A stretch of DNA of 24,929 nt from a virus: the IMG/VR virus record IMGVR_UViG_3300048839_001163, positions 1 through 24,929 of that record. One strand, written 5' to 3'. Both the position numbers and the translations under genes were made by a program. The notes under the pieces are model-generated. The model was given only the letters and a program-made list of their open reading frames with translations, was not told where the DNA came from and made no database searches. This document shows positions 10,756 through 10,893 of the stretch, one piece after another (the stretch's first letter is position 1; every line of letters starts with the position of its first letter).

Positions 10756-10893
10756 GGGGAGATAGCAAAAACAAAAACAAGAAATACTATCTCACTGCTC
10801 TCTTCACAGAGAGAACTCGTAGTGTTTTCAGTAAAGGTAAAGCAATTGAGTTGAAATCAATAGATTACAGGTTCGAGTCCTGTTCTCCCCACA
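10756..10893 (+). ncRNA. tRNA-like RNA (anticodon TGA) with a Y-type stem inserted in the D arm
   Basis: The ends form a perfect 7-bp acceptor stem (GGGGAGA 10756-10762 with TCTCCCC 10884-10890), followed by ACA. The T arm is canonical: ACAGG/CCTGT around TTCGAGT. The anticodon arm is ATTGA/TCAAT around GTTGAAA, giving TGA (serine codons UCA). The variable region is only AGATT, so the long arm that serine tRNAs need is missing. Between TAGC (10763-10766) and TAAAGGTAAAGC (10832-10843) lie about 65 extra bases. They fold as AAAAC/GTTTT, a bulge AAGAAAT, ACTA/TAGT, an internal loop and CTCTCT/AGAGAG with a TCAC loop. This insert is one of four copies of the same module in the block. Either the RNA is a tRNA mimic, or the insert must be removed; if it is, a normal D arm GCTC-AGTAAAGGTA-AAGC results. 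Confidence 0.75.

Follow-up and report, generated by a model that had tools for sequence, protein, structure and literature searches.

A putative Ro-linked tRNA mimic with a stem in its D loop beside a phage Ro60-fold gene

YrlA, a small RNA of Salmonella that goes with Rsr/Ro60, joins a stem formed by its paired ends to a tRNA-like domain that comprises a D, a T, and an acceptor arm (PMC8394870). Ro and Y RNA have been linked to PNPase in Deinococcus (PMC8394870; PMC7790460), and the complex of Deinococcus radiodurans is RYPER, i.e., Rsr-Y RNA-PNPase. In the bacterial Y RNAs described in the literature searched, a non-exhaustive set, the tRNA mimic sits on a stem that the two ends of the RNA make with each other. 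TROVE proteins have been reported from a small fraction of jumbo phages (PMC7824862), and no account of the RNAs beside jumbo-phage TROVE genes was found in that literature.

The window, i.e., the whole stretch of 24,929 nt that was analysed (positions 1 to 24,929 of IMG/VR record IMGVR_UViG_3300048839_001163), is a phage fragment with RecA-like, 5'-3' exonuclease, and DnaB-like ORFs. It encodes an RNA, named class III here and shared by a family of large phages, that resembles YrlA as a small modular RNA beside a Ro60 gene (contig G008 excepted) and in combining a Ro-type stem with a tRNA-like domain that has D, T, and acceptor arms. The layouts differ. The 5' and 3' ends of YrlA pair into the Ro stem, whereas the class III RNA has acceptor ends and its stem is closed inside the D loop. 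The class II RNA at 11151 is nearer to the YrlA layout. The class III RNA probably acts in the manner of a Y RNA, but because it is without the paired-end Ro stem, a defining feature of YrlA, it is regarded as a variant and not as a YrlA member. In Rfam 15, no Y RNA family was hit at gathering thresholds or, relaxed, at E ≤ 5, an outcome that is compatible with membership. Our reading, with a probability of roughly 0.78, is that the class III RNA is a Ro-linked mimic of tRNA that retains tRNA ends, i.e., a phage Y RNA of new topology.

The locus and its Ro60-fold protein

The features of the locus were assigned as follows.

10702..10709, +: Bacteroidota-type promoter -7 element (TAnnTTTG), TATATTTG, from the sequence
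10727..10733, +: GTTCTTT leader, which we take to be boxA-like, seen by eye just upstream of many homologues
10756..10891, +: class III RNA, an acceptor-ended tRNA body with a Ro-type stem (the module) in the D loop (covariance model R1, covariation)
10756..10762, +: acceptor 5' strand GGGGAGA, partner UCUCCCC at 10884-10890
10759..10765, +: competing 5' hairpin, arm 1 GAGAUAG; arm 2 is CUAUCUC at 10787-10793
10763..10769, +: U8 A9, D-stem 5' strand G10 C11, and A14, positions kept in homologues
10781..10790, +: module helix 2, first strand, partner at 10819-10828
10791..10797, +: module internal loop, first side, opposite side at 10814-10818
10798..10813, +: module distal stem CUCUCU/AGAGAG with closing loop (covariation)
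10819..10834, +: module helix 2, second strand, with CAGUAA, common to other RNAs of the locus
10836..10843, +: G18 G19 U20 A21 and D-stem 3' strand, GG in 38/38 homologues
10845..10861, +: anticodon arm with loop GUUGAAA, 34-36 = UGA (covariation), loop variable among homologues
10867..10883, +: T arm ACAGG UUCGAGU CCUGU (covariation)
10930..11003, +: ordinary tRNA-Met(CAU) (ARAGORN, Rfam)
11009..11082, +: class IV RNA, a Ro-type stem from paired ends, without tRNA body
11151..11288, +: class II RNA, a tRNA body in circular permutation; the stem is at the variable region and a loop closes the acceptor
11500..11590, +: class IV RNA, second copy
11745..13379, +: Ro60/TROVE-fold protein, 544 aa (structure comparison)
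13391..14488, +: ARPP-1 domain protein (PF20208, 1.6e-15)

The ORF at 11745-13379 was not recognised by Pfam, PHROGs, PADLOC, NCBIfam, or a profile search against PDB sequences, and structure alone identified it as Ro. With its AlphaFold model (pLDDT 73), the first 13 Foldseek matches were all Ro60, Rsr, and TROVE structures, and a second structure aligner gave Z of 11.9-14.9 with Ro60, Rsr, and TROVE structures. The Ro60 of Thermus phage phiLo (9l5y), also a phage-encoded Ro60 fold, aligned to the model at Z 14.4. A profile search of the genome contigs with the Ro alignment returned no relative, so no host or bacterial Ro homologue was seen there. The sole match of the L062 Ro, used as query, was a near-identical contig of L062 itself.

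The ARPP-1 neighbour is kept beside Ro in LR756500 (29% identity, E 3e-40), and its protein is a candidate functional partner of Ro. In the G008 contig, both class II and class III RNAs are intact, but the locus has neither the Ro nor the ARPP-1 gene, and a search of the 140.8 kb of the contig gave no Ro match. The genome may carry Ro at another place, or the RNAs may be useful without it. A TnpB-like ORF was observed just upstream of the RNAs in this contig (L097, G008:76500-86500).

Of the 38 class III homologues, 17 have a TAnnTTTG element in the 90 nt upstream of the RNA, usually near -52, whereas 7% of random 90-nt windows contain one. The GTTCTTT leader is repeated ahead of many RNAs in these arrays.

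Architecture and conservation of the class III RNA

The RNA comprises a tRNA body and, between A14 and G18G19 of its D loop, a stem-internal loop-stem with its own hairpin loop. The earlier note had described perfect acceptor, T, and anticodon arms, a D arm split by a hairpin, and a variable region of 5 nt, and all of these were confirmed. The acceptor has 7 bp and the T and anticodon stems have 5 bp each, the D loop holds the two-part hairpin, and 37/38 homologues have a variable region of 5 nt. The topology is also, as had been proposed, the reverse of that of the RNA at 11151-11288. The limits of 10756-10893 were corrected at the 3' side: the acceptor ends at 10890 and A73 is 10891, while 10892-10893 are the start of the trailer, with C74 kept.

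With the neighbouring Ro-like ORF as query, 61 viral loci were collected, and 38 distinct RNAs of the same layout were gathered and aligned. Unguided RNAalifold on these homologues recovered the acceptor, T, and anticodon stems and the two module stems. Over 29 pairs, 98.4% of cells are paired and double changes occur at 19/29 pairs; slid-partner controls gave 48-56% paired, and 160 double-changed cells were observed vs 12-26 in the slid sets. By part, the acceptor is 99.6% paired with double changes at 6/7 pairs, the anticodon arm is 100% paired with double changes at 3 pairs, and double changes were found at 4/5 pairs in both the T arm and the module distal stem. The acceptor and T-arm pairing, on which the earlier proposal had been made to depend, is retained across the 38 homologues.

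The positions of the tRNA elbow are also kept, i.e., U8, A14, and GG in 38/38, with a T loop fitting UUCRANU in 38/38. The D stems vary by subfamily yet remain paired: GC with GC/GU (register-dependent), UGC/GCA, GCA/UGC, GAUU/AAUC, and, by eye, GUG/CAC in LR756500. From tRNA numbering, the elbow contacts therefore appear to be kept, and the module appears to exit where the D loop is naturally variable.

A covariance model built from these 38 RNAs found class III RNAs at ≥90 bits in 43/52 tested Ro loci, some with 2-3 copies, most of the high scorers being training sequences of the model, as is the window RNA itself (151.7 bits with R1). Ten of the loci lie outside the alignment (L011, L012, L018, L023, L026, L027, L029, L030, L033, and L036). 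Eight more contigs outside it, reached by an independent DNA pattern scan (L064, L069, L070, L074, L075, L076, L081, and L084), scored 131-155 bits. LR756500, whose Ro is 27% identical, gave class III matches at 65.6, 62.4, and 56.7 bits. In two copies, L011:1943-2081 and L012:3083-3221, the 5' acceptor strand is apparently lost. Among the matches listed in blastn of the RNA array against phages, only the tRNA-Met appeared.

As a single sequence, the class III RNA folds at -36.6 kcal/mol (z -3.3). The Rfam tRNA model covers only its 3' part, 10830-10883, at 29.4 bits. ARAGORN made one call on the window, the tRNA-Met at 10930-11003, and left the class III RNA without a call; of the intact members, 2/38 were called, both as partial stretches.

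tRNA ends, decoding, and alternative explanations

C74 is encoded in 38/38 class III RNAs and the whole CCA in 3/38, and among 89 ordinary phage tRNAs these counts are 87 and 3. A PolyA_pol/CCA-type gene is present in 7/7 clade genomes. The encoded ends and this gene are consistent with tRNA-type processing and CCA addition.

The class III RNA is not expected to decode. Its anticodon loop has 7 nt in 36/38 homologues, and positions 34-36 are UGA in 20 of these 36, with nine other triplets in the remainder. U33 is found in 26/38 and is absent in about a third. The earlier note took the anticodon to read serine codons; the window RNA has UGA, and serine is not conserved in the family. These genomes also encode ordinary tRNAs at other places (four of the larger records gave 36-53 matches), including a tRNA-Ser(UGA) of 84-90 nt in both phages examined. 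Because triplet and U33 drift and an ordinary tRNA-Ser(UGA) is at hand, a serine role of the chimera is unlikely.

The RNA resembles tmRNA in that tRNA acceptor and T-arm ends are set on a larger non-decoding RNA. It differs in having no tag reading frame, in the insert replacing part of the D loop, and in the kept anticodon arm; both phages examined have a separate tmRNA. Large tRNA clusters were observed in L091, L092, L094, and L095, i.e., two phage clusters, each with about 45 tRNAs and accompanied by a tmRNA. They include a CUA-anticodon tRNA (called Pyl), and C74 is almost always encoded there and CCA rarely.

The earlier note had also considered a tRNA whose D arm carries an intron-like insert; in the form weighed here, it would be a tRNA-Ser gene, and removal of the insert would give a working tRNA. 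When nt 12 up to the base preceding CAG was removed, ARAGORN called 28/38 members, 18 of them as Ser(UGA) and the others with several anticodons. However, the effect is unspecific, as 29/70 arbitrary deletions of the window RNA, used as the control, were called too. The insert is present in all hits of ≥90 bits and has covarying stems of its own, and the RNA lacks the long variable arm. With the differing triplets, the frequent loss of U33, and the ordinary tRNA-Ser(UGA), these results led to the rejection of the spliced form, which is considered very improbable. A decaying, functionless pseudo-tRNA could account for the missing ARAGORN call and for the loci without a class III RNA. It is contradicted by the covariation and the 98.4% paired cells, by the several copies per phage, and by retention across Ro proteins that are 27% identical, and it is given next to no chance.

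Two other explanations deserve more weight. GAGAUAG (acceptor 4-7, U8, A9, and G10) and the module sequence CUAUCUC are complementary, and the helix that they form is incompatible with the full acceptor stem. The RNA might then have two states, i.e., the 5' hairpin would form first, exclude the acceptor, and then switch. The helix is conserved in the clade with matched changes: pairing of each of the 38 members with its own partner averages -7.86 kcal/mol vs -5.69 (sd 0.28) for permuted partners, and 0/5000 permutations did as well; the permutation leaves the shared ancestry of the members in place. The three LR756500 copies have similar 5' hairpins, each individually modest, with 25, 76, and 273 of 1000 shuffles as good. 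Column by column, the covariation of the helix is weak because subfamilies use different registers, and the predicted minimum is the acceptor form. The helix is a possible cotranscriptional intermediate or switch, and perhaps a mere folding intermediate, and a true two-state RNA is judged somewhat unlikely. It would be compatible with the reading as a Ro-linked mimic, and Ro or a nuclease could recognise the 3' strand set free by the hairpin. An alternative of function is that the RNA, stabilised by Ro, serves as a decoy or competitive inhibitor of host anticodon nucleases that cut tRNA. This would fit the anticodon arm and 7-nt loop kept in 36/38 while the triplet drifts, and a T4 Rnl1-type RNA ligase is found in 4 clade genomes. 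Anticodon nucleases often read U33 and the anticodon triplet, but neither is kept, and the set of graft topologies would be left unexplained. We consider a decoy unlikely, although the idea has been raised for YrlA too (PMC7790460).

The Ro-type stem at other joints and a proposed role

The strand UUUUCAGUAA of the class III module, and the stem that it forms, are common to the RNAs at 11009, 11151, and 11500. The motif TTTWCAGTAA (strand UUUnCAGUAA) occurs 5 times in the window, with 4 of the 5 in the RNA array (0.52 expected). The stem is a putative binding site of Ro, linked to it only through neighbourhood and through its presence in the RNAs of classes I, II, and IV. The adjacent Ro60-fold product and the presence of the stem in three other RNAs support the earlier suggestion that the RNA is a stable mimic, with a stem for Ro attached to a tRNA body.

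The same stem is found on other tRNA bodies. In class II, a permuted tRNA body is set on a stem of the RNA's ends (35 pairs, 22 with double changes). The window copy scored 147.1 bits with model R3, of which it is a training sequence, and the class was found in 50/52 searched loci in addition to the window. In class I, which is absent from the window, the stem is joined to the body next to the acceptor (double changes at 11 of 25 pairs). This class was detected at ≥85 bits in 42/53 sources, including the Ro locus of LR756500 (85.8 bits). Two variants keep acceptor ends. At L045:3033-3178, an acceptor-ended tRNA body has the stem at the variable region and, by eye, equals an unpermuted class II; in one LR756500 copy, the stem lies between the acceptor and a complete D arm. 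These variants indicate that the stem moves while the tRNA ends stay.

Class I RNAs, such as L005:2086-2214, were called by ARAGORN as tRNA-Glu, SeC, Stop, Arg, and others. The odd finder calls beside Ro genes (SeC, Stop, Asp, and others) are explained by class I RNAs, whose tRNA bodies the finders pick up. Such annotations beside phage Ro genes are probably wrong, the objects being tRNA bodies on a Ro-type stem.

In the proposed mechanism, RNase P, RNase Z, and a CCA enzyme would give the class III RNA mature tRNA ends, and the phage Ro ring would bind the stem in the D loop. The RNA would then act as an adaptor, with Ro held at the outer elbow of the tRNA body and the acceptor end left free, to be presented to a tRNA-handling factor. 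Host PNPase, as the known partner of Ro and Y RNA in Deinococcus, would be the first candidate for this factor. Neither an RNase PH-domain (PNPase) gene nor RtcB was found above the cut-off in eight phage records, so the effector would be that of the host. The tether of a Ro ring to a nuclease is likened to RYPER, which has PNPase, whereas no PNPase-type gene was found in those eight records. This adaptor role is put forward tentatively, at a little under even odds.

Classes I and II bear this stem on different faces of the tRNA body, and their ends are sealed. It is conceivable, and a shade more doubtful, that all these RNAs form one graft series, with the stem at the acceptor end, the variable region, the D loop, or the acceptor/D joint, in which the D-loop form is bistable. 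If this is true, some of the RNAs terminate in the stem, others have real tRNA ends, and a single Ro ring is placed against different faces of a tRNA mimic. With true tRNA ends, end-processing, CCA addition, and acceptor-end binding could join the functions of the Ro particle. A natural series with one stem at different joints would be a convenient panel, already at hand, to learn which face of the tRNA body the Ro partner reads.
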